A program made the position numbers and the translations under genes. From Myxococcales bacterium (lineage in GTDB: Bacteria > Myxococcota_A > UBA9042 > UBA3505): a stretch of DNA of 64,000 bases. How positions within the stretch are numbered: the first letter of the stretch is position 1; each line of letters opens with the position of its first letter. Where the stretch lies: assembly GCA_002728755.1 (NCBI GenBank), contig PBVT01000041.1, positions 1 through 64,000 of the forward strand, in the 5' to 3' direction. A model generated the notes under the pieces. It saw nothing but the letters and a program-made list of their open reading frames with translations, did no database searches and was not told where the DNA came from. This document shows, piece after piece, positions 3,149 through 48,907 of the stretch.

Positions 3149-3246
3149 TGGCGGAGACGCAGGGGAATCGAACCCCCCTGAGATACGGTGACGTACCTCA
3201 CACCGGCTTTGAAGGCCGGGCAGCCCACCAGGACCGACGCATCTCC
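3149..3246 (-). tRNA. selC: tRNA-Sec (anticodon TCA), 3' CCA encoded
   Basis: Read on the minus strand this folds as a selenocysteine tRNA. It has an 8-bp acceptor stem (GGAGATGC with GCGTCTCC), a 6-bp D stem with a 4-base loop (CGGTCC-TGGT-GGGCTG), a 5-bp anticodon stem CCGGC/GCCGG with loop CTTCAAA giving anticodon TCA, a long variable arm with a 9-bp stem (TGAGGTACG/CGTATCTCA), a 5-bp T stem with loop TTCGATT, then G73 and an encoded CCA. The 8+5 acceptor/T geometry and 6-bp D stem are the hallmarks of bacterial selC. It lies 38 bp from the divergent kinase gene, so its promoter must overlap that gene's 5' region. Confidence 0.95.
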
Positions 3247-37071: not shown

Positions 37072-37150
37072 GCCCCCGTAGCTCAGCAGGATAGAGCCGG
37101 GGATTCCTAATCCCTGTGAGCCGGAGGTTCGAATCCTCTCGGGGGTGCCA
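37072..37150 (+). tRNA. tRNA-Arg (CCT)
   Basis: Acceptor GCCCCCG/CGGGGGT (1:72 is G-U), D arm GCTC...GAGC, anticodon stem GGGGA/TCCCT with loop TTCCTAA (anticodon CCT), 7-base variable loop, T arm GGAGG-TTCGAAT-CCTCT, G73 and an encoded CCA. metG starts 37 bp downstream on the same strand. Confidence 0.93.
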
Positions 37151-37187
37151 GTCGAACGCAGATTCCGTAGGTAGAGTTAGACCGAAA

Positions 37188-39116
37188 ATGACCAAGCGTA
37201 GTTACTTCACAACCCCGATCTATTACGCCAATGGGCGTCCCCATATCGGACACGCCTATTGCTCGGTGTTAACAGACACATTTCGCAGGTACCACGCTCT
37301 ATTCGGCTACGAGACACACTTCCTCACAGGAACAGATGAACACGGCCAGAAGGTACAAAAGTCTGCAGAGAACGCGGGTGTCAGCCCTGCAGAATACGTA
37401 GATAAAATGTCGCAGGCCTTCCGCGATCTACTCCCGGACCTTCATGTAGAAAACGATGATTTCATTCGGACTACAGAGCCACGTCATACCGAGATCGTAC
37501 GTGAGGCACTGCAAAGCCTTTACGATAAGGGTGACATCTACCAGAACCAATACGAGGGCTGGTATTCGGAACGGGCCGAACGCTTCTGGACGGAAAAAGA
37601 TCTGGTGGACCAGAAATGCCCGGAGACAGGAGGTCCTGTCGAGCGCGTGAGCGAGAAGAATTACTTCTTCCGGATGAGCAAATACCAGCCGCAGCTCATC
37701 GAGCATCTTGAGAAGAACCGCGACTGGATTGTTCCGGCAAGTCGTTGGCAAGAAGTCCGCTCTTTCCTGGAAAACCCTCTACTGGATTTGTCGATTTCAC
37801 GTCCGAAATCACGGCTATCGTGGGGTATCCCCCTGCCCTTCGATGAAGATTTCGTGACCTATGTATGGTTCGACGCGCTATTGAATTATTGTTCCGGTAT
37901 TGGGCTCTACCGCGACGATCAGAGGTTCCAGACCTGGTGGCCCCACGCCAACCACTTCCTGGGGAAAGATATTCTGACTACCCATTCGGTGTATTGGGGC
38001 ACAATGCTGTTGGCCCTCGACCTACCTCTGCCGAAGCGATTGGTTACAACCGGAATGTGGCTGATTGATAATACGAAGATGAGCAAGTCTCTTGGGAACG
38101 TGGTCGACCCCCTCTCCCTTGGAGATAAATACGGCGCAGAGGTGCTTCGCTATTTTCTGATGCGTGACATCGTCATAGGACTCGACGCGTCCTTCAGTGA
38201 AGAGGCCGTTGTTCGCCGAAACAACAGCGATCTAGCCAACGACCTGGGTAATTTGCTTCGGCGCACCATAACCCTTGTGGAGCGCGGCTTTGACAGCAAG
38301 ATCCCTGCTCCAGGCCCAAGTGGTGATGAAGACGCAGAGCTGGAACAGCTCATTAACGCTGTGCCGCGTGTAGTCGAAGAACATATCATGTCCCATCGAC
38401 TCCACGACGCGATCGAGCAGACCATGCAGGTCGTACGGGCCATGAACCGTTATATCGATCATACGGCACCGTTCAAAGTTGTGAAGGAAGACCCAGCCCG
38501 TGCCGGTGAGACCCTACGCCATATCCTTGAAGGGTTGCACGTCGTCGCAAATCTGCTTCACCCCATCATGCCCGAAAAGATGAACGAGCTCTTGTCGAAT
38601 CTTGGTTGTGCAGGACCGGTAAAGACAGCACAGGAATTACATTACGGCATGCTGGAAGCGGGAACACCGATCAAGGCGGGACCACCACTATTCCCAAGAC
38701 TGGAATTTGAAGCTCCGCCCGAATCCGAGGCACCGCCGAAAAAAGCAGAAAAGAAGGCGAAACCCACCCCCAAACCCGATCCAGGTGACGGCATGGCCAG
38801 TTTTGACGACTTTTTGAAACTACAGCTCGTAACCGCAACGATCGTTACCGCGGAACCCATTGAGGGAGCGGAGAAGCTATTGAAGCTCACCGTTGACGCT
38901 GGAGAAGAGAGCACCCGAACTGTCGTGGCAGGTATTGCGAAATCCTATGCTCCCGACGATTTACCAGGAACGTCGATAGTCCTTTTGGCAAACCTCCAAC
39001 CTCGAAAGATCTTCGGTGTCCTGTCTCAAGGCATGGTGCTTCTCGCAGAATCGGATAATCGCATGGTCTTTGTACAACCCGCCGAGGCATTGCCAACAGG
39101 AGCGAAAATCCGTTGA
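37188..39116 (+). CDS. metG: Methionyl-tRNA synthetase
   Basis: 642 residues from ATG 37188; the open frame extends back into the tRNA and is not coding there. It charges tRNA-Met, including the initiator at 31.8 kb. The class I signatures are PHIGHAY and NTKMSKSLGN. The connecting peptide lacks the zinc-knuckle cysteine pairs of the E. coli type. A Lys/Pro-rich linker (~residues 525-550) joins a C-terminal OB-fold tRNA-binding domain (FLKLQLVTATIVTAEPI ... LQPRKIFGVLSQGM) that promotes dimerisation. The stop overlaps the next start by 4 bp (TTGA). Confidence 0.97.
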   Translation: MTKRSYFTTPIYYANGRPHIGHAYCSVLTDTFRRYHALFGYETHFLTGTDEHGQKVQKSAENAGVSPAEYVDKMSQAFRDLLPDLHVENDDFIRTTEPRHTEIVREALQSLYDKGDIYQNQYEGWYSERAERFWTEKDLVDQKCPETGGPVERVSEKNYFFRMSKYQPQLIEHLEKNRDWIVPASRWQEVRSFLENPLLDLSISRPKSRLSWGIPLPFDEDFVTYVWFDALLNYCSGIGLYRDDQRFQTWWPHANHFLGKDILTTHSVYWGTMLLALDLPLPKRLVTTGMWLIDNTKMSKSLGNVVDPLSLGDKYGAEVLRYFLMRDIVIGLDASFSEEAVVRRNNSDLANDLGNLLRRTITLVERGFDSKIPAPGPSGDEDAELEQLINAVPRVVEEHIMSHRLHDAIEQTMQVVRAMNRYIDHTAPFKVVKEDPARAGETLRHILEGLHVVANLLHPIMPEKMNELLSNLGCAGPVKTAQELHYGMLEAGTPIKAGPPLFPRLEFEAPPESEAPPKKAEKKAKPTPKPDPGDGMASFDDFLKLQLVTATIVTAEPIEGAEKLLKLTVDAGEESTRTVVAGIAKSYAPDDLPGTSIVLLANLQPRKIFGVLSQGMVLLAESDNRMVFVQPAEALPTGAKIR

Positions 39117-40276
39117 CGGAACCATCGCAACGGCAGTTTGTGTCCATGCTCCGAAGCTGGGCTGAAGCACGGAATGAGCCCTCCTGGCTGATCGATCAGC
39201 GAACCCATGCGGCGCTGAATATGTCCCCTTCAAGAATTGATGAACTGGGGAACGAAGAGTGGCCAATCCTTCCGACAGGAGCTTCTCTTGGCCGGATCAA
39301 ACAACCACAGCATCGAGAATTACAAGACCTGGGCGGCACCAGCACACCTCTTCACGCCCCTGAGGCTCTACCGGCCATCGAAGGCTTCGCCAACCCTCTT
39401 TTACGACGGTGGTCGACTTCTCTCGCAACTCGCGCCTTAGCTATCTGGGAAGATGGTCTCTTTCTGCATGTGCCCCAACATAAGGAGACGACAATCTCCC
39501 TGGATCTCTTTCCTCACCATCTGGGGGAAGCGAATGTTGTGCGCCACGTAATCGTTCTGGAACCGGGTTGTCGTGTGCAGATCATTGAAGGTTGTATCGC
39601 ACCGCGCTACATCAACCATGGCCCGGAATTGGTCACTGTCGAGTTATTCCTCCATGAAAATTGTTTCGTTGAATACTTCAGCCTGAGCCATCGTACTGGC
39701 CAGCATCAACGCAATATTCTCCGCTCTACCTGGGTTGCCAACGGATCACATCTTCGCTTTACGGACTGCACACTGACATCGGACCAGGAACACCACGATT
39801 CGCATTTGAATCTGCACGGAAACGATGCATCCGTGGACTGGCATTCCTTTCAATGGGCGCAAGAATCCGGACGGTCGACCCATATGTTTCAAGCGCTTCA
39901 GCTCGGTAACCACTCGGAATCGAATATTCAGATTCACAATATGGCGTCAGACCAGGCTTCAAGTCATACCGATTGCCAAGTCGATTTGGAAGCCGTTCAG
40001 GGTACTACAACCAGTCGCATCAGCTTAGCCACTCTGTCGACCGATCCCTCAGCAACTGCCACCCACCGCGTGGATGGTCCACAATCCAATGATGAGTTCA
40101 TATGTGAGGGACAACCCCACCAATCTGTTCATATAGAGAATCCCGAATTGTTGAATACAAAAGTCTCCGACGAGGTCGAAGACTTCGTTCGACCTTCCAT
40201 CCAACGTCTTCCTCAAGACATCGGTGTAGAACTATCGGAGATTGTCCGACGTGGCCTCTCCGGCCCAATTCGATAA
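39113..40276 (+). CDS. sufD: SufD-like Fe-S cluster assembly protein (divergent)
   Basis: 387 residues from TTG 39113, overlapping the metG stop; AGGAG lies 10 bp upstream. SufD forms the SufBC2D scaffold for iron-sulfur cluster building. The beta-helix core is recognisable (VRHVIVLEPGCRVQIIEG, SDQASSHTDCQVDL, TTSRISLATLSTD), and the end (ELSEIVRRGL) fits the family's last helix. The conserved Ser-His-Gly-Ala segment near the C-terminus is missing, so this is a divergent member. First gene of a SUF group with Rieske, sufS, sufU and sufT but without sufB or sufC. Confidence 0.75.
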   Translation: MTEPSQRQFVSMLRSWAEARNEPSWLIDQRTHAALNMSPSRIDELGNEEWPILPTGASLGRIKQPQHRELQDLGGTSTPLHAPEALPAIEGFANPLLRRWSTSLATRALAIWEDGLFLHVPQHKETTISLDLFPHHLGEANVVRHVIVLEPGCRVQIIEGCIAPRYINHGPELVTVELFLHENCFVEYFSLSHRTGQHQRNILRSTWVANGSHLRFTDCTLTSDQEHHDSHLNLHGNDASVDWHSFQWAQESGRSTHMFQALQLGNHSESNIQIHNMASDQASSHTDCQVDLEAVQGTTTSRISLATLSTDPSATATHRVDGPQSNDEFICEGQPHQSVHIENPELLNTKVSDEVEDFVRPSIQRLPQDIGVELSEIVRRGLSGPIR

Positions 40277-40361
40277 GGATTTCCTGTGGATAGCCCCCTA
40301 CAGGCTTGAAACGATCTATAGGCCCTGATACCAACAGCCCGGTTCATGTCTGACGAGTCAT

Positions 40362-40679
40362 ATGCCAAATAAATATACGATAGGGGAAGAGAAGGATTAT
40401 CCAAACGGTAGCATCACTCCGTTGGAAATCGCAGGCCAGGACTATGTCGTAGTGCGCGCTGAGGATGGCAGCTTGTCGGTCCTCCGTGACGAATGTAGTC
40501 ACCTGCAGCTACCGATTTGCGAAGGCCATGTCACTGAAAACCGGCTGGTCTGCCCCTGGCACGGCGCTTCGTTCGACATCTCGACCGGAGCAGCCTTGAC
40601 CCTGCCCGCCGACGAGCCCATTCCCTGCCTGCGTCATGAACTGACCGATGGTAAGCTCATCGTTCATCTGGAGGAATAG
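40362..40679 (+). CDS. Rieske-type [2Fe-2S] ferredoxin in the SUF cluster
   Basis: 105 residues. The two cluster motifs are Cys45-x-His47 (ECSHLQLPICEGHV) and Cys64-xx-His67 (VCPWHGASFD), so the cluster site is complete. There is no membrane helix; it is a small soluble electron carrier of the kind found inside actinobacterial-type suf operons, where its partner is not settled. The stop codon TAG is followed at once by the sufS ATG. Confidence 0.92.
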   Translation: MPNKYTIGEEKDYPNGSITPLEIAGQDYVVVRAEDGSLSVLRDECSHLQLPICEGHVTENRLVCPWHGASFDISTGAALTLPADEPIPCLRHELTDGKLIVHLEE

Positions 40680-41918
40680 ATGCTGGATGGACGAAAAATA
40701 AGGGACGACTTCCCCATCTTTGAGAGAAAGATTCGTGGTCGAGACCTGGTCTTCCTGGACACAGCGGCCTCTTCGCAGAAGCCAAACTGCGTTATCGATT
40801 CCTTATCGCAGTTCTATCGCGATTCGAACGCCAATGTGCATCGTGGCCTCTACGTGCTGTCCATGGAGGCTACACATAAGCTTGAGCAGTCGCGAAAACA
40901 TGTCGCGGAGTTCGCCGGCGCCAATCCCGACGAATATTATACGGTTTTCGTACGGGGCACGACCGAAGCGATCAATCTTGTGGCGTGCTCCCACGCGCTA
41001 CAAAGCCTTGGTAGTGGCGACGAGATTCTGATCACGGAGCTTGAGCATCACGCCAATCTGGTGCCCTGGCAGATGGTGGCAAAACAAACCGGTGCCACAC
41101 TACGCTACGCACAGATTGATGCCGACGGCCGCCTGGACCTGGACCATTTCTTCGACCAGGTCAATGATAAGACCAAGCTGGTCAGTTTTGTTCACGCCAG
41201 TAATGTGCTGGGCACCATCAACCCAGCGAAAGAGATCGTATCGCGCCTCAACGAACGCGGTATTGTCACGATGATCGATGGCGCACAGGCTGTCCCCACG
41301 ATGCCCGTGAACGTCTCGGACATAGGCTGCAGCGCGTACGCATTTTCCGCCCATAAGATGCTCGGCCCCACCGGTGTGGGTGTTCTCTTCCTGAAGAAAG
41401 ACCTTGCGGATAATATGGTGCCCTACCAGCTGGGTGGCGGCATGATCTTCAAGGTCAAATATGACACCACCCGCTTTGCCGACCCACCGGAGCGCTTTGA
41501 GGCCGGAACACCGGCCTTTGCGGAGATCTCCGCCTTCTCCTCCGCGCTCAGTTATCTGGAAGAGCTCGGCATGGACAATGTGCTGAAGCATGAACAACAG
41601 ATGGCCTCCTACATGGTGGAGACCCTCGGAAAGATCGAAGGGCTTAAGCTCTTTGGACCGCCAGACGACCACGATCGATTAGCGATCGTCTCCTTTGAAC
41701 TCGACAATATTCACGCACATGATCTCGGCATGTTCCTCGATTTCCAGGGAATCTGCGTCCGTGTTGGGCATCATTGTGCACAGCCTCTAATGGAAAAGCT
41801 GAATACAACGTCGACCACAAGAGCGAGCGCCTACATCTATAATTCCGAAGAGGACATCGACATCCTTGCATCGGCCCTTCGTGAAGCACAGTCCTATTTC
41901 TCACGAACTCTGGGTTGA
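40680..41918 (+). CDS. sufS: Cysteine desulfurase SufS
   Basis: 412 residues. PLP enzyme that takes sulfur from cysteine as a persulfide for Fe-S cluster assembly. The PLP lysine is Lys226 in SAHKMLGPTGVG; the persulfide cysteine is Cys366 in RVGHHCAQP, with the short loop of group II (SufS) enzymes. Starts directly after the Rieske stop and precedes sufU by 4 bp, the usual partner that accepts the sulfur. Confidence 0.95.
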   Translation: MLDGRKIRDDFPIFERKIRGRDLVFLDTAASSQKPNCVIDSLSQFYRDSNANVHRGLYVLSMEATHKLEQSRKHVAEFAGANPDEYYTVFVRGTTEAINLVACSHALQSLGSGDEILITELEHHANLVPWQMVAKQTGATLRYAQIDADGRLDLDHFFDQVNDKTKLVSFVHASNVLGTINPAKEIVSRLNERGIVTMIDGAQAVPTMPVNVSDIGCSAYAFSAHKMLGPTGVGVLFLKKDLADNMVPYQLGGGMIFKVKYDTTRFADPPERFEAGTPAFAEISAFSSALSYLEELGMDNVLKHEQQMASYMVETLGKIEGLKLFGPPDDHDRLAIVSFELDNIHAHDLGMFLDFQGICVRVGHHCAQPLMEKLNTTSTTRASAYIYNSEEDIDILASALREAQSYFSRTLG

Positions 41919-41922
41919 TCGT

Positions 41923-42393
41923 ATGCATCGCGAAGGACAACCGGGAACCGAGGTTCATCTGTCGCAACTCTATCGCGACACCATCGTGCGGCACGCTAGA
42001 AATCCCAAAGGCACCATGCCAATTGGTACAGCGCAGATTCAGCGCGATGGATACAATCCCAAATGCGGTGATGAATTACTCCTCCGATTGCGCCTGAAAG
42101 ATGGTGACACCGATCCCATCATTGAAGCGGCACAGGTCGAAGTACATGGCTGCACCATCTGTCGCGCCAGTGGAAGCCTGCTTTGGCCTCATCTGACGGG
42201 GAGTAGAATCTCCGAGTGCCAGACGAAACTCACTCGTTTTCGGGAAATGTTTACAGACAGCAACCCGGATACGGCGTTACTGGAGGAGGCTGCTATACTA
42301 CAAAGCGTAGCGGCGTTCCCCGCTCGTATCGATTGCGCTCTTCTACCCTGGACCACGGTCGAAGCAGCATTTCGTGCCTGGTCCAAACCCTGA
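41923..42393 (+). CDS. sufU: SufU-like sulfur-transfer/scaffold protein
   Basis: 156 residues from ATG 41923, 4 bp after sufS; a longer frame would start inside sufS. Zinc/sulfur ligands are Cys48 and Asp50 in NPKCGDELLL, Cys77 in HGCTICRASGSLL, and the last Cys in RIDCALLPW, the SufU pattern. In the position where SufU usually has Ser there is a second Cys (Cys80). It accepts persulfide from SufS. Confidence 0.9.
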   Translation: MHREGQPGTEVHLSQLYRDTIVRHARNPKGTMPIGTAQIQRDGYNPKCGDELLLRLRLKDGDTDPIIEAAQVEVHGCTICRASGSLLWPHLTGSRISECQTKLTRFREMFTDSNPDTALLEEAAILQSVAAFPARIDCALLPWTTVEAAFRAWSKP

Positions 42394-42417
42394 CCCGGTC
42401 ATCGCTACGGAGTGATC

Positions 42418-42756
42418 ATGTCATCAAATTCGCCATCGCTTCCCACCGCCAGCGACCTCAAATCATCATTGAATGAGGTCATCGACCCCGAACTCGATGT
42501 TGGGTTGGTGGATCTCGGGTTGATCTATACAGTGACTGTAGATGAAGACCACGCCGATATAACTATGACCTGGACCAGCTACGCCTGTCCGTACGGCCCA
42601 CAACTTGTGGCAGCAGTGCGCTCCCATGGTCTTAATGCAGGCTTCCCACGCTGTGATGTCCATGTAACATTTACACCCCCATGGAACCCTCGAACTATGG
42701 CGACCCTGGAGGGTAAAATGAAGCTGGGCATGTGGGATGATATGGACACCGATTAG
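42418..42756 (+). CDS. sufT: SufT/MIP18-family (DUF59) Fe-S maturation protein
   Basis: 112 residues from ATG 42418 with GGAG five bases upstream. The family core is VIDPELDVGLVDLGLIYTV, with the conserved Cys in MTWTSYACPYGPQL. Such proteins help maturation of iron-sulfur proteins and are a standard last gene of sufU-type operons. Converges on the SRAP gene with 7 bp between stops. Confidence 0.88.
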   Translation: MSSNSPSLPTASDLKSSLNEVIDPELDVGLVDLGLIYTVTVDEDHADITMTWTSYACPYGPQLVAAVRSHGLNAGFPRCDVHVTFTPPWNPRTMATLEGKMKLGMWDDMDTD

Positions 42757-42763
42757 TCCAGAT

Positions 42764-43450
42764 TCAGAACAGCTCCTGCTGTACTTCCACTGGAGCGATA
42801 CAACGTGGCCCATCGTTCTGAATGCGGTTCACATGATTCGATACCGCGATGGCTTGCACATCTGGTGCTGAGTCACCCTCCAATACCGCATGGAGAGTAT
42901 CGGGGGTAGAATTGGTCGTATCCAGCCAGATATCGAAATGTGCTGGGGCTACCATCAAGGGCATACGCCCATGAATCGACTCGATATCTGGGTGAGCCGG
43001 CTTTGTGATGATGGTGCAGGATTCCACCACCAGACCATCCCGGCCTTGCCAGCTCTCCCATAAGCCTGCAAACGCCAGAAGTCGATTTTCATTCGACCGG
43101 ATATGATAGGCTTGTTTGCCCGCCCCCGTGCCCTTCCATTCGTAATAACCAGACGCTGGTATAAGGCATCTCCGGTCCCGAAACGAAGCACGAAAAGACG
43201 GCTTCTCCTGTACGGTCTCCACACGCGCGTTGATAAGCTGCGTGTCCATTCTATGGTCTTTTACCCAACGAGGAACCAGGCCCCACTTGAAGGCGTCACA
43301 GTGCCGCTGTCCGTCCGGCGTCTTTACGATGCCCAGGACACTCTGGGTTGGTCCAATATTGAACCTTGGCTCGATCTCGTCGAGGCCGTCGACAGCAAAG
43401 AACCCTTCCAGATCGTCTGTTTCATGGACCAGCAGAAAACGTCCACACAT
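42764..43450 (-). CDS. SRAP-domain protein (YedK/HMCES-like abasic-site DNA protease/crosslinker)
   Basis: 228 residues starting MCGRF, so Cys2 becomes the N-terminal nucleophile after Met removal. Asn in INARVET, Glu in SGYYEWKG and His in IHGRMPLMV are the other active-site residues. It crosslinks to abasic sites in single-stranded DNA to shield them. It follows the beta-propeller gene by 8 bp on the same strand but has no evident functional link to it. Confidence 0.95.
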   Translation of the reverse strand: MCGRFLLVHETDDLEGFFAVDGLDEIEPRFNIGPTQSVLGIVKTPDGQRHCDAFKWGLVPRWVKDHRMDTQLINARVETVQEKPSFRASFRDRRCLIPASGYYEWKGTGAGKQAYHIRSNENRLLAFAGLWESWQGRDGLVVESCTIITKPAHPDIESIHGRMPLMVAPAHFDIWLDTTNSTPDTLHAVLEGDSAPDVQAIAVSNHVNRIQNDGPRCIAPVEVQQELF

Positions 43451-43458
43451 GATGCTCT

Positions 43459-45609
43459 CTATTTGAGTTCGACCCCGTCAACGATCCAATTCCCCATGGC
43501 ATCAAACGCACGGATTCGCACCATACCAGCGCCCGCACCATCCAGATCCCTGAGGTTCACCTGGAACGATTCCTTATCTCCATCGACAATGCCATCCCGA
43601 GGTGCGACCTCTCTCCAGATACCATTATCCACGGCCACCTCGACAGCTCGTAGAGAGCTCCCTGCGTCCCGCACCGTGAAGTGAACCTTCTTATCGCGCA
43701 CCTTGATCTCCGCGACCGACGGAGGATGATTGTCAATAAGCACCGGTTCCGAGATGAGATGGTCGCGTTTCTCTTGACCCGGTGGATTCCCCAGCGCATC
43801 GGAGATGCCAACTCGAACCTCGTACCGGCCGTCCGGGAAATCCGCCGATATCCAATCTACGTATAGCCGGGTGGTGCCATCTTTCCCGGTGATTGGAATC
43901 CATGCCTGGGTACCGATGCGTCGAACCGACACAAATGCCCGCAGTTTATCGCCGTTCAGATCCTGCACATCGTAGCCGATCCGCTTGATCCCCGTATATC
44001 GTTTAGCAGTACTTGATTTGAGCCTCTTCGTCCCTTTCCGAACACTACGACTACGCGAGGGAGTCTTCTTCTTACTGGGACTGGATGATTTCATCACACG
44101 GTCTACCACGACTACACGGTGTACGGACGGTGCGAGATTGGGCGAGCGGAACGCGAGTCGTATCGCACGTGCATGGGCTTCCTTACCGCTCAAATCCAGA
44201 CGATATTGATAGAACCTCTGTGGCGTCACCTTTGGAACTCCGCCGCCAGCCGGAACCTTTACAAATCCGCTCCACGTATCCGCCTGCACTTCATAGGTAG
44301 AGCCGGTCCGGACCCACGCTGAGAACCCTTTCCCAACCATATCCACTCGCCCCATCGACGCCATACCACCCGAATCTCGGACCTTGGAATAATACCGTGG
44401 CTTGGAGGTGACTGGTCGCAACTCGTAGAGTGCCGCACCACCGGTTGTGGCCACATAGCCCGTACCATCGGGATTCAACAGAATGTCCGAGATCGCTGCC
44501 TGTGGCGTATCTATATATAGACTGCTGGCACCTTTCGGATTGAAAAGAAACGCGCGCCCTCGATCGGCAAGGCTGAGAAGAACCGCTACTCCATCCGCAC
44601 GTTCCATAGAAAGAATCGGTGGCAGACCCGCCAGCTCGGGGCGATTGGTCCCGGAGGAATCCACGAACCATACGGACGATCCTTTCGGTAAAGTCAGAGG
44701 GGCGGTAGCGACCACCGGTGAGCCAAATGCACTCCCCGTTCTAACGCTCTTAGATTTCTTACTATCGCTTCCTCCTGCCGATTTACTCGGGGCCGGAGCT
44801 GTCGTACCAGACTTTCTTGGATTGACGGCCGCATACATCCCCCCTTCGACCGGCTGCAAGCGGCGTACTTCGGTCTTCATGCCCATATCGAGCAGAACTC
44901 GTCGCACAGGGATCGAACCATCCTTTGCTACTTTGCCCCCGGACAACTCGAGAACTCTACCGGGGTACGAAGTTGCAGCCCAACGCTTTTTCCCGATCTG
45001 CAACGTGTCCATCACATGTTCTGCTTGCAGCGTACCGCTACGGCGCACCTTTCCTTTCGAATCGGCGAACACCAGCCCACCGGGGCTTCCTGTAGAGATA
45101 ACGACGCCCTTCTTTCCATCGGCTCGAATCGACCAGATATATGTCGCATCCCCGTCATACACCACATGGGATTTTCCCTGGGCGTCAATACGGATTACAC
45201 GACCGGATGGGGACAAGCCGACCCATAACGCTCCATGGTGCCAGGCCAGGGCCGTCACACCGATATCGTTCTCATGGGTTCCCTTGAAGACCGAGACAAA
45301 CTTCCCCTTCCGCAGGCGCAAAACCTGCCCACTTGCGGTGGTACCGACATATACGTCTCCACCGCCACGGGCGACCGCTGTAAAGCCATCAATTGGCTTC
45401 CCGTCGATCTCGGAGACCATATGCTCCTTGAGCCCTGGCCCCGATAGAATCAAACCGTCATGACTCAGCACCGTTCCTTCGAACGTTCCCTGATCAAAGG
45501 ACTGGACGCCCTGGTCCACCACAAGCTCGGTTCCTCCGGCCTGCGCGGACACAACGATGCCCATCAATCCAAGACAACTAATAATAACGATAAATTTCTT
45601 CACACCCAT
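43459..45609 (-). CDS. Exported beta-propeller-like protein, partner of the S55 peptidase
   Basis: 716 residues with a signal peptide (cleaved near SAQA-GG). Residues ~30-420 hold repeated short segments such as VYVGTTASGQVLRL, LWVGLSPSGRVIRI and GYVATTGGAALYEL, typical of propeller blades, interrupted by a Ser/Lys-rich insert (~270-295). The C-terminal ~270 residues have another Lys/Arg/Ser-rich linker (~520-545) and Ig/Fn3-like strands (DGRYEVRVGISDALGN). It follows the S55 peptidase gene by 5 bp. Role unknown. Confidence 0.72.
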   Translation of the reverse strand: MGVKKFIVIISCLGLMGIVVSAQAGGTELVVDQGVQSFDQGTFEGTVLSHDGLILSGPGLKEHMVSEIDGKPIDGFTAVARGGGDVYVGTTASGQVLRLRKGKFVSVFKGTHENDIGVTALAWHHGALWVGLSPSGRVIRIDAQGKSHVVYDGDATYIWSIRADGKKGVVISTGSPGGLVFADSKGKVRRSGTLQAEHVMDTLQIGKKRWAATSYPGRVLELSGGKVAKDGSIPVRRVLLDMGMKTEVRRLQPVEGGMYAAVNPRKSGTTAPAPSKSAGGSDSKKSKSVRTGSAFGSPVVATAPLTLPKGSSVWFVDSSGTNRPELAGLPPILSMERADGVAVLLSLADRGRAFLFNPKGASSLYIDTPQAAISDILLNPDGTGYVATTGGAALYELRPVTSKPRYYSKVRDSGGMASMGRVDMVGKGFSAWVRTGSTYEVQADTWSGFVKVPAGGGVPKVTPQRFYQYRLDLSGKEAHARAIRLAFRSPNLAPSVHRVVVVDRVMKSSSPSKKKTPSRSRSVRKGTKRLKSSTAKRYTGIKRIGYDVQDLNGDKLRAFVSVRRIGTQAWIPITGKDGTTRLYVDWISADFPDGRYEVRVGISDALGNPPGQEKRDHLISEPVLIDNHPPSVAEIKVRDKKVHFTVRDAGSSLRAVEVAVDNGIWREVAPRDGIVDGDKESFQVNLRDLDGAGAGMVRIRAFDAMGNWIVDGVELK

Positions 45610-45614
45610 CTCCC

Positions 45615-47423
45615 TTATTTCAAAGAGGGTTTTCTAGGAGCTATCTTCACTTTCATGTACGTCTTACCCAACAGGACCCAGGGCACCGTTTTCGAAACCG
45701 TCTGAAAGGTCGGATGCGGACCGACCATTACCCTGGAGGCCTTTAAGGCTGCACTGAACGAAGGCGGCGGGCTCGGAAACAATCCTCCCCCACTATCGAG
45801 AGTCACAGCTCCCGGCTTCGGTATTCTCACTACCAGATCACGTTTGGTTCCGAGAGGACGAATCGATTGGAGATAGGATTCGAAATCGATCGGCTTGGCG
45901 CGTTTTGATACCAACAACTGTTTCGCTGTACCGACTTCAATTTTGATTACACCCGTCGGGTAATCCGCCGGTATGGCCAAATCCACATATTCCGTCACAG
46001 CCTCGTCCTTTCCATAGGGGCGAAGGTGGATACCAAGCCGCAGAGTTTCCCCCGCCTCAACCTCCGTCGTTGCAGAAGACACGCGAAGAATCTGGGCTGT
46101 CTTTTGTTCTGGAATGACCTCTACATCCACCGACAACGACGCTATCTGAATCGATTGATAGGGGTTCAGCAGTAGCTTAACCAATGCACCGAGCACCTCC
46201 CGCATCATCCCCATCTTCGGTGCCTTAATCATGCTATAGCTGACGACGGTGTCGGAGTGACCATCCTTCAATTTCCAGTCAAGAGTGACTCGATAAAGAT
46301 ACGGTAGCCCGTGGGGCAACGCATTTTGTACGGAACCTCCGATACCTCCTGCCAGAACCAGAGGTAGAGTGAGGGGCATTGGCGACAAACGCATCGAGTA
46401 TTTTCGATCCACCCCGAGCTCTTTCGAGCGAACCCGAACATCAAGCGGCACCATCTCTGGACGATTCGCCATCGTACCGACCACGGACGCCTGAAAATCG
46501 CCCGTCAGCTGACCGATTACCGGGCCTGCATTGGCGACTTTGAACGAGATCTTCTGTGTAGCCATGATGTGTTGGATCGAGGCATCCACAATGGGGAAGT
46601 TGGTGGCACCTATCTTTAAGAAGGGATGACCAAAACCGATTAACCGGTCTCCTTCGACGTGGGTAACGGTTCCCACGCCCACCATATTCAGATCGCCTAG
46701 CATAAAGGCGATCCCCAACGATCCCCCCGGCACAAGACGCCTGCCTTTCGAATTGCTCTGGCCACCGCCTCCACCACTGATCGGTGTCATCCCCATACGG
46801 CTTAAACCGCTATGAAAGGCACTCGATAATCCATCCGGCAAATCCGGTAGGATAAGGGGCATTGTCATCGCCATTGGCCCTTCGGACTTTGGCGTAGATC
46901 CTATCCCCATTCGCTCCATGGCGGCAGCAAGATCGCCATCGACGAGATAGGGGCCCCAGACCGCCCCAACCTTATCCGGCCAATGTCGATCCGAGATACT
47001 TCTGGGGTCACGATCCAGATCATCGAGCATATTGGAAATCGGTGTAATTCCCGCGATCGGATCCTTTCCAAAGGCCCAGGCATAGGATAACGCGCCTACC
47101 AACTTACCGTTGGGGTAGGAACCAATATAGATTGGGCTCCCGCTCATGCCCGCTACCGTTCCACTATGTTCCAACCCCCGTCCGGCCACGCGAACCAGAA
47201 TCATGCCCTGGTGTGGAAATTTATTGTCGATCTTTCCGATTACTTCCACATCGAAGCGTTGCGGATCGTAGCCTTGAAAGACCGATAACCCGTACCCCTG
47301 CATACCGCGTTGCACATCCTGGTATTGCATGATGTCGACACTACGGCCCGACTTGGCGTGCAGGTCCGACATCGGAAACCAGACCATCGATATTAAAAGC
47401 CAGAACCAAATCCTATGGATCAT
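45615..47423 (-). CDS. SpoIVB-like peptidase S55 domain protein
   Basis: 602 residues with a signal peptide (ending DLHA). Residues ~28-150 and on match the S55 serine peptidase domain of Bacillus SpoIVB: GMQGYGLSVFQG, the GMSGSPIYIG nucleophile segment at 92-100, and GKLVGALSYAWAFGKDPIAGITPI. The region 200-270 contains GDLNMVGVGTVTHVEGDRLIGFGHPFL, also seen in this family. The remaining ~350 residues are beta-rich. This is not a spore former by context, so the role must differ from SpoIVB. First gene of the operon with the propeller protein and SRAP. Confidence 0.78.
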   Translation of the reverse strand: MIHRIWFWLLISMVWFPMSDLHAKSGRSVDIMQYQDVQRGMQGYGLSVFQGYDPQRFDVEVIGKIDNKFPHQGMILVRVAGRGLEHSGTVAGMSGSPIYIGSYPNGKLVGALSYAWAFGKDPIAGITPISNMLDDLDRDPRSISDRHWPDKVGAVWGPYLVDGDLAAAMERMGIGSTPKSEGPMAMTMPLILPDLPDGLSSAFHSGLSRMGMTPISGGGGGQSNSKGRRLVPGGSLGIAFMLGDLNMVGVGTVTHVEGDRLIGFGHPFLKIGATNFPIVDASIQHIMATQKISFKVANAGPVIGQLTGDFQASVVGTMANRPEMVPLDVRVRSKELGVDRKYSMRLSPMPLTLPLVLAGGIGGSVQNALPHGLPYLYRVTLDWKLKDGHSDTVVSYSMIKAPKMGMMREVLGALVKLLLNPYQSIQIASLSVDVEVIPEQKTAQILRVSSATTEVEAGETLRLGIHLRPYGKDEAVTEYVDLAIPADYPTGVIKIEVGTAKQLLVSKRAKPIDFESYLQSIRPLGTKRDLVVRIPKPGAVTLDSGGGLFPSPPPSFSAALKASRVMVGPHPTFQTVSKTVPWVLLGKTYMKVKIAPRKPSLK

Positions 47424-47593
47424 CTCTTCTCCCTACCATACACTCGGGCAAACCACGGATGTCTTGTCCGAATCCCGGTCATACTAGCAGGGATCGACAC
47501 AATAGAGAAAGCCGGACCAGGCATCCGGTTCGTTCTCTCCTTTTGATCACCGTCTGGACAAGATACATACGCCACACACACGCAACGGAAAAT

Positions 47594-48907
47594 TTGTTGG
47601 CAACAGAAACGCAAACAGACAACGCTGCTCGAAAAGTCCTTCGGGTTCGAGATCTCCACCAGACATCGGGACATCCCTGTCAGATCGTGGGGAGGCTCCA
47701 TCAAAAAGAGCAGAGTTGGTATCTACGGGACTGGAGTGGTGAAGTGCCGTTGAACCTTCCCAAAGACACGGCAGACATTCGTAATCATGGGATGGGCCGG
47801 GTCTTTGGAAGCTGGGACGGCCAAAGACTTACGGTGGATTCCTGGGTATCTCTTTGTCCAGAGACAAGGCAAACCATCGCAGAGCCCGAGTTACCACCAG
47901 GACCCGAACGGGCACTGACAGATACGGACTTTATTCGACGAATTCAGCTACGGACAGAATACATACGGAGTACGCGGCAGTATTTCGACGAACTCGGATT
48001 TCTGGAAGTCGATACTCCATGCCTCGTGGCGGAGCCTGGGTGCGACCCCCACATTCAGCTATTTAAGACCACCTATCAGCCTCTGGCAGGCACGGGGCAG
48101 TCCACCGAGCTCTATCTACACACCTCCCCGGAGTTGGCCATGAAACGCCTTCTCGTCTCAGGTGCCAAAGCCATATACCGGGTTGGTTCCGTGTTTCGAA
48201 ACGGGGAAGCGGACGCCACTCACCGGCCCGAGTTCCTTATGCTGGAATGGTATCGCGTCGGGGACACCCTTGATGACCTGATGAATGTCACCGAGGGGCT
48301 CTTCCACCGACTCTATGAGCACGCCCTGAGCCAGGGATTCAATCCACCTCCTCTGCCCAGCGCATTCCAACGACTTCCTCTCCGCGATGTCTTTTTCGAA
48401 GCCACAGGTGTTGACCTCCTGGAGACATTCGACCCCGCGGGCTTTGCGACGTTGCTTACGAAACAGGGGTTGGGCCCCTACCCTGAGAAGTCGGACTATA
48501 GTCAGATCTTTCATCAGGCCTGGGTCGAATCCGTAGAAGAGCTGGTCACCAAGTACTCTCCCTGTTTTCTTTTTGATTATCCGGCCCCCTTGGCATTGCT
48601 GAGTAGGCTTCATCCCAAAGAACCTCGCCTAGCCCGTAGAGTCGAGGCCTTTTATGGCGGCCTGGAGATGGCGAATGGATTTGAAGAGTTAACGGATCCA
48701 GTAGAACAGCGTCACCGCTTTGAACAAGATCGACACAAGGCAGTACAGGCGGGTCATACTCCGCCTCCTCTCCCAGAGGGTTTTCTTCGCGCCCTGGAAC
48801 TCGGATGTCCTCCCACCGCAGGCATTGCCATAGGCCTCGACCGGATGGTGCAACTCACAACTGGAGTATCGGCGCTTGCCGATGTCAATCCCCTGGTGAT
48901 TCCCTAA
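47594..48907 (+). CDS. epmA: EF-P lysine ligase-like protein (EpmA/GenX) with N-terminal OB-like extension
   Basis: About 437 residues from TTG 47594 or 47597 (GGAA upstream); an ATG at 47459 is possible, but its first 45 residues look non-coding. The class II lysyl-tRNA-synthetase-like core has motif 2 (RVGSVFRNGEADATHRPEFLMLEWY spans it) and motif 3 (AGIAIGLDRMVQL). EpmA attaches beta-lysine to elongation factor P. Known EpmA proteins lack the anticodon-binding domain; here residues ~10-100 (IVGRLHQKEQSWYLRDWSGEVPL) resemble an OB fold. The EpmB-like enzyme at 32 kb completes the pathway. Confidence 0.82.
   Translation: MLATETQTDNAARKVLRVRDLHQTSGHPCQIVGRLHQKEQSWYLRDWSGEVPLNLPKDTADIRNHGMGRVFGSWDGQRLTVDSWVSLCPETRQTIAEPELPPGPERALTDTDFIRRIQLRTEYIRSTRQYFDELGFLEVDTPCLVAEPGCDPHIQLFKTTYQPLAGTGQSTELYLHTSPELAMKRLLVSGAKAIYRVGSVFRNGEADATHRPEFLMLEWYRVGDTLDDLMNVTEGLFHRLYEHALSQGFNPPPLPSAFQRLPLRDVFFEATGVDLLETFDPAGFATLLTKQGLGPYPEKSDYSQIFHQAWVESVEELVTKYSPCFLFDYPAPLALLSRLHPKEPRLARRVEAFYGGLEMANGFEELTDPVEQRHRFEQDRHKAVQAGHTPPPLPEGFLRALELGCPPTAGIAIGLDRMVQLTTGVSALADVNPLVIP

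Follow-up and report, generated by a model that had tools for sequence, protein, structure and literature searches.

An S55-type peptidase with apparently swapped barrels and its exported propeller partner in Myxococcota and other bacterial phyla

INTRODUCTION

The closest described relatives of the system reported here are proteases of the PA clan, in which the barrel carrying the catalytic His precedes the barrel carrying the catalytic Ser: SpoIVB of Bacillus subtilis (MEROPS S55, PDB 9lnf) and the extracytoplasmic HtrA proteins, including DegS and MucD. HtrA proteins have unpermuted barrels and a PDZ domain in cis. In two other envelope systems, CtpA-LbcA and Prc-NlpI, the protease has a dedicated separate partner, the protease being of class S41 and the partner of TPR fold. 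Here we analyze two adjacent genes, A and B, in a 64,000-nucleotide stretch of a Myxococcales bacterium (positions 1 to 64,000 of contig PBVT01000041.1, hereafter the window). The contig has 79,905 bases and belongs to a 4.14 Mb draft genome that is 93% complete. An earlier note, made from the window's sequence, had described A as a SpoIVB-type peptidase fused to a long beta-rich part and lying next to a large exported propeller protein, B, and had suggested that the two make up an undescribed envelope module. The locus comprises:

45615..47423, minus strand: gene A, exported S55-type serine peptidase with apparently swapped barrels, 602 amino acids (open reading frame list, PF05580 match)
45610..45614, no strand given: spacer from the A stop to the B start, GGGAG, 5 bp
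43459..45609, minus strand: gene B, exported propeller and Ig-like partner of A, 716 amino acids (open reading frame list, family alignment)

Both halves of A align with SpoIVB, and the two share a GMSG motif and a GxGTxT...GH pattern around the His. A differs from SpoIVB in that its halves are inverted, it lacks a PDZ domain, it has an extra C-terminal region of about 250 residues and an Asp (D309) at a place taken by Asn or Ser in SpoIVB homologues, and it comes with an obligate propeller partner in phyla not known for endospores. With the HtrA proteins A has in common PA-clan barrels and an extracytoplasmic location, its Ser barrel aligning to their C-terminal barrel, whereas it has neither their PDZ domain nor their unpermuted barrel order and is accompanied by a separate propeller protein. 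The Reg_prop sensor ectodomains found in hybrid two-component systems (PDB 3v9f, 4a2l and 3ott) share with B a propeller followed by an Ig-like domain. B differs from them in having a protease for a partner and in lacking a transmembrane segment as well as any kinase or receiver domain. CtpA-LbcA and Prc-NlpI are a mechanistic parallel only; their protease class and partner fold are unrelated to those of A and B.

S55-type proteins outside sporeformers are already known to annotators; an excerpt of a 2022 paper reports wide detection of SpoIVB peptidase (S55) among acidobacteria (PMC8841776). Within the open-access literature, a scope outside which most subscription journals lie, we found no description of the permuted order or of the propeller pairing, and the excerpt of PMC6524800 available to us contains no mention of ‘permut’, S55 or SpoIVB. 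Judged by title and abstract, papers joining SpoIVB to beta-propellers do not concern this pair, and those joining circular permutation to chymotrypsin-like folds do not concern a naturally permuted PA protease. We consider it probable, if well short of certain, that A is an exported PA-clan serine endopeptidase with swapped barrels and that B is an obligate exported propeller partner that binds it. With slightly more caution, we also lean towards a natural, multi-phylum family of swapped-barrel chymotrypsin-fold proteases, with the order Ser-His-Asp, that is invariably inherited together with a propeller subunit dedicated to it.

RESULTS AND DISCUSSION

A and B occur in the same genomes

The earlier note had proposed surveying the two families in non-sporing bacteria, and genes that were not neighbours elsewhere would have told against its idea. 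In the window's own phylum, 66 of 235 genomes have A relatives, and the genomes with B relatives are precisely these 66; in 61 of them B lies directly downstream of A and in the same orientation. A second phylum, to which G236 (from a record titled Phycisphaerales) belongs, has A relatives in 38 of 149 genomes; these 38 are also the ones with B relatives, and in 34 of them the two genes are adjacent. Thresholds for the second phylum were E ≤ 1e-10 for A and E ≤ 1e-40 for B, the stricter B value having been preset to exclude other propellers; all 38 best B matches scored 2.6e-99 or better. No genome in either phylum set contained only A or only B.

A set of named loci, the best 80 of 556 A relatives from a scan of genome contigs, partly overlaps these phylum sets (e.g. 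G004 is L041 and G056 is L067) and comprises 39 loci from Myxococcota by title, 12 from Planctomycetota, and others from Verrucomicrobiota, Acidobacteriota, Spirochaetota and further groups. Cultured carriers of the pair include Sorangium cellulosum So ce26 and Minicystis rosea. B starts at most 301 nt from the end of A, or is fused to it, in 75 of the 80. Each of the five genomes without an adjacent B has a near-full-length B elsewhere. In the window's phylum the five genomes in which B does not directly follow A are G006, G046, G056, G061 and G226; A and B of G006 and G056 lie on different contigs, both mid-contig and far apart, and in G226 the 3.4 kb past A hold no B. A single locus of the 80, L079, has A and B as one open frame of 1442 amino acids, in which A occupies residues 21-642, a Ser/Pro/Asp-rich linker stands in place of the B signal, and B follows at 764-1436. 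The existence of this fusion, together with the retention of both genes after break-up of the operon, favours a lasting complex over a one-time substrate. Distances in the A and B trees correlate with r=0.91 over 75 pairs, a value reached in 0 of 2000 permutations; there is no species-tree baseline for this figure, and the genomes do not count as independent samples. The comparison used 74 loci and the window; L092, with a B fragment only, and the five loci without adjacent B were left out.

Neighbourhood clustering across the 80 named loci revealed no third conserved gene beside A and B. Once A, B and opposite-strand shadow open reading frames are set aside, the widest neighbour clusters cover 19, 13, 13 and then 12 of the 80 loci; the second 13-locus cluster overlaps B's own place, and the clusters that were scanned are kinases, an ABC transporter or of no assigned family. 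No A relatives were found on plasmids (B was not searched there). Given that B accompanies A across several bacterial phyla, the two very probably belong to one machine outside the cytoplasm.

Two loci deserve separate mention. G321, from the second phylum, has two A and two B genes, each A beside its own B. L082, from a record titled as a Klebsiella pneumoniae metagenome-assembled genome and probably mislabelled, carries an A-B pair of myxobacterial type.

A matches half of the S55 model and is predicted to be exported

The product of A matches Pfam PF05580 (Peptidase_S55) with 34.8 bits, above the cut-off of 25, which bears out the earlier identification of an S55-type peptidase with a GMSGSP motif. 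The match covers just the C-terminal half of the profile (positions 105-201 of 210), unlike that of a SpoIVB control (L132), which spans positions 2-210 and so the whole domain, His half followed by Ser half. All 27 aligned A members match PF05580 at E ≤ 1, and none of the 27 matches any PDZ family at E ≤ 1, a domain that the SpoIVB control does have. Of the two A alignments, A1 holds the window and 26 of 29 relatives (L006, L012 and L016 were dropped as nearly duplicate sequences; L001 and L002 come from the genome of the window itself), and A2 holds the window and 26 of the 72 loci whose motif was found by a first pattern; the 8 loci that this pattern missed all carry the His. SpoIVB proper was rejected as an identity for A, which reaches 30.8 bits with the equivalog model TIGR02860 where 305.25 are required and has no PDZ domain. 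The SpoIVB-type label of the earlier note thus gives way to a different architecture:

47355..47423, minus strand: A residues 1-23, probable signal peptide (SDLHA|K; hydrophobic N-terminal stretch, cleavage site inferred)
46998..47345, minus strand: A residues 27-142, Ser barrel, corresponding to the C-terminal barrel in SpoIVB and in further proteases of the PA clan
46464..46739, minus strand: A residues 229-320, proposed His barrel, corresponding to the N-terminal one in SpoIVB but placed after the Ser barrel
45618..46373, minus strand: A residues 351-602, beta-rich C-terminal region (secondary structure; structural matches weak only)
47142..47144, minus strand: S94, proposed nucleophile (GMS94GSP; SpoIVB S378 in 9lnf numbering), in 81/81 sequences
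46626..46628, minus strand: H266, proposed catalytic His (GFGH266P; SpoIVB H236), in 81/81 sequences, aligned to the SpoIVB GALGH His by hmmsearch and hhalign
46497..46499, minus strand: D309, proposed catalytic Asp, 43 residues past H266, in 81/81 sequences

By hydropathy, A has an export-signal-like N-terminus with no later transmembrane-like segment. The same criterion places such a stretch before the Ser barrel in 79 of the 80 named A relatives and a later transmembrane-like segment in none of them. A simple pattern picked out twin-arginine-like signal starts in 12 of the 80 (L032-L111); in some lineages folding may therefore precede export.

The proposed active site is invariant

Variation at the peptidase residues, which the earlier note would have counted against itself, was not observed. 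S94, H266, D309 and K295 are identical in all 81 sequences, although for S94 this is partly the result of selection, because GMSGSP served as one of two patterns in the scan; D244 is found in 80 of 81. H266 and D309 played no part in the sequence search. In chymotrypsin the catalytic His57 and Asp102 are 45 residues apart, and the spacing of 43 between H266 and D309 is close to this canonical distance. The place aligned with D309 is occupied, by our reading of the alignments, by Asn, Asn, Asn and Ser in the SpoIVB homologues. The best reading is that A would be an active extracytoplasmic serine protease.

A could instead be a structural scaffold that has kept the protease fold and lost proteolysis, so that A and B would together form an envelope assembly. 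The GMSGSP loop does have Met where GDSGGP of chymotrypsin has Asp, and several of the residues that never vary in A are Gly or Pro with a structural role. A protease that decays usually loses one residue of the triad, whereas here all three are constant with a spacing that fits a triad, and we regard loss of activity as quite unlikely.

The proposal, if correct, also bears on an open point about SpoIVB itself. Its crystal structure, according to the excerpt of the report available to us, places Asp363 about 24 Å from His236, so that the role of this Asp was doubted and Thr393 was suggested instead (PMC12502668). Neither place is conserved in A, which has G/H/D and A/S there (columns 81 and 113, column 81 being uncertain by one). 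The SpoIVB crystal offers no usable Asp, while in the A family the Asp at the canonical position never varies.

The two barrels of A appear to be swapped

The Ser barrel is readily placed. Its alignment with SpoIVB gives E=5e-12 in hhalign, and residues 27-140 of the full A model (predicted local distance difference test score, pLDDT, 79.2) match SpoIVB 9lnf in Foldseek with probability 1.00 at 25% identity. VIA pairs it with SpoIVB 312-426, MucD 163-271 and DegS 140-250, all C-terminal barrels, with Z values of 7.1 for DegS and 6.9 for MucD. When the A profile was run against the PDB with hmmsearch, SpoIVB 9lnf was found at E=2.4e-9 in two parts in inverted order: profile positions 52-136 of A fall on chain positions 232-317, and positions 256-276 on 118-140, ending at the His. 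By our own count chain position 140 is residue 236, the catalytic His of the crystal paper as given in its excerpt (PMC12502668). The 256-276 part scores below zero alone and was therefore examined further by profile-profile tests.

Against four SpoIVB sequences, the His block of A aligned over 101 columns (hhalign E=3.3e-4, probability 38). With the A profile rearranged to place the His half before the Ser half, it became collinear with SpoIVB over 188 columns, compared with 89 in natural order; the total score is identical in both orders (97.6), so the gain is one of coverage. The His block itself scored 30.3, and none of 150 column-shuffled blocks did as well (mean 13.7, maximum 22.1). Four of the 150 shuffled constructs still gave an alignment reaching the His region, which makes alignment length alone weaker evidence than the His-block score. 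Modelled separately, the His block has a pLDDT of 89.4, and SpoIVB is its highest-probability Foldseek row among the matches listed (0.84, E 0.55). Nearly all of the first 16 rows that VIA gives for this block are PA-clan proteases, with Z from 7.0 to 5.3; as these values fall in the tool's common range, the fold supports the permutation without proving it, and absence of a fold family from the VIA list does not exclude that family.

The order in A, Ser barrel first and His barrel second with a linker of about 85 residues between them, is the opposite of the PA-clan order. With the Ser half first and the His half after it, the chymotrypsin-type domain of A appears, at the profile level, to be circularly permuted and its barrels swapped relative to SpoIVB. 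The long beta-rich part that the earlier note saw fused to the peptidase would then be two things: the C-terminal region (residues 351-602) is indeed beta-rich, and the middle part was rejected as a fusion, since residues from about 229 to 320, inverted in order and collinear once rearranged, appear to be the missing His half of the peptidase.

Several results weigh against this interpretation. The similarity of the His half is modest when taken alone (hhalign probability 38; hmmsearch 2.9 bits against one SpoIVB), its VIA Z values do not exceed 7.0 and the rows place it on C-terminal barrels, and part of the constancy of S94 comes from selection. Even at E ≤ 10 no Pfam family matches the His block, and its profile returned no SpoIVB from the PDB, as would be expected if A were not permuted, its Ser barrel alone being S55-like and the GFGHP domain an unrelated one with a coincidental motif. 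This would leave A with a single Ser barrel, which is insufficient for a PA-clan active site, and it does not sit well with the shuffle test, the 188-column collinear alignment, the dominance of PA-clan proteases among the structural matches or the leading place of SpoIVB in Foldseek. We hold it to be as doubtful as the loss of activity considered above, and retain swapped barrels as the better account.

B is a predicted exported propeller protein and a probable regulatory partner

B was described in the earlier note as a large exported propeller protein 5 bp from A, and the GGGAG spacer, an export-signal-like start and propeller profile matches agree with this. The sequence of the window's B has no Pfam family above cut-off. 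Among the 30 aligned B members (alignment A4, 29 of 75 B loci and the window), 24 match PF07494 (Reg_prop) at E ≤ 0.1, the window's B not being one of them, and the family profile finds solved propellers in the PDB, including 3v9f, 4a2l and 3ott. A Pfam scan of B showed no kinase or receiver domain. Hydropathy gives B a hydrophobic export-signal-like start and no later transmembrane-like segment; a lipobox-like IISC lies at residues 9-12, inside the hydrophobic stretch. Its parts are:

45538..45609, minus strand: B residues 1-24, probable signal peptide (VSAQA|G; hydrophobic stretch, cleavage site inferred)
44335..45498, minus strand: B residues about 38-425, propeller part (family alignment and PDB profile matches; boundaries approximate)
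44731..44817, minus strand: B residues 265-293, Lys/Ser-rich linker 1, within the propeller part
43999..44091, minus strand: B residues 507-537, Lys/Ser-rich linker 2
43462..44322, minus strand: B residues about 430-716, TRSGNT...TWSxWS segment and Ig-like C-terminal domain (alignment; weak Ig-like Pfam matches in members)

The Lys/Ser-rich linkers reported earlier are thus present, and other members have variable inserts at the same alignment places, matching in position and not in sequence. Two such long low-complexity linkers, together with strict co-occurrence and adjacency, would suit B as the main substrate of A, the propeller being trimmed or released at its linkers in the course of envelope processing. 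This is unlikely in our view: the linkers align by position only, and a natural A-B fusion is more expected of a complex than of an enzyme with its substrate, though the linker of the fusion could be self-cleaved. Of the roles first offered for B (substrate, receptor or adaptor), receptor or adaptor remains the best, and that of substrate is weakened by these same two observations.

As a partner of A, B would be exported with it to the same extracytoplasmic space and bind it there. A would fold as two reverse-ordered barrels with a rebuilt active site, the S94 barrel being followed by the linker and by the barrel with H266 and D309. B would most likely be a sensor, substrate-recruiting or activating subunit that provides recognition or regulation in trans, delivering substrates to A or gating it. 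It would so take the place of the PDZ domain, which in SpoIVB and HtrA proteases binds regulatory peptides in cis.

Since the two genes belong together beyond chance and the catalytic residues are constant, they represent a conserved extracytoplasmic module, and the earlier suggestion of an undescribed envelope module accords with a pair that is conserved across phyla and for which no prior open-access description was found. If the proposal is correct, a large family filed under the name of a sporulation peptidase would turn out to be a protease system of its own, with two subunits, in phyla for which endospores are not known, and evolution would have retained a rearranged chymotrypsin fold across phyla. 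The near-perfect linkage of A and B makes the partner hypothesis directly testable.

Genomic context in the window

A lies upstream of B, the TAA stop of A and the ATG start of B being 5 bp apart. An alternative GTG start for B, read from the sequence two codons in, has better Shine-Dalgarno spacing than the ATG. A scan of 43300-47600 found no sigma-70-like promoter and says little for this organism.

On the opposite strand, 35 bp from A, a class II aminoacyl-tRNA synthetase gene (PF00152; lysyl type by eye) occupies 47459-48907 (plus strand). On the other side, past an SRAP gene adjoining B, SUF-type iron-sulfur cluster genes lie at 37116-42756 (plus strand); by eye from the translations, the run includes SufD-like, ferredoxin-like, SufS-like, SufU-like and SufT-like products. 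Elsewhere in the window, ARAGORN predicts a selenocysteine tRNA (anticodon tca) at 3149-3246 (minus strand).

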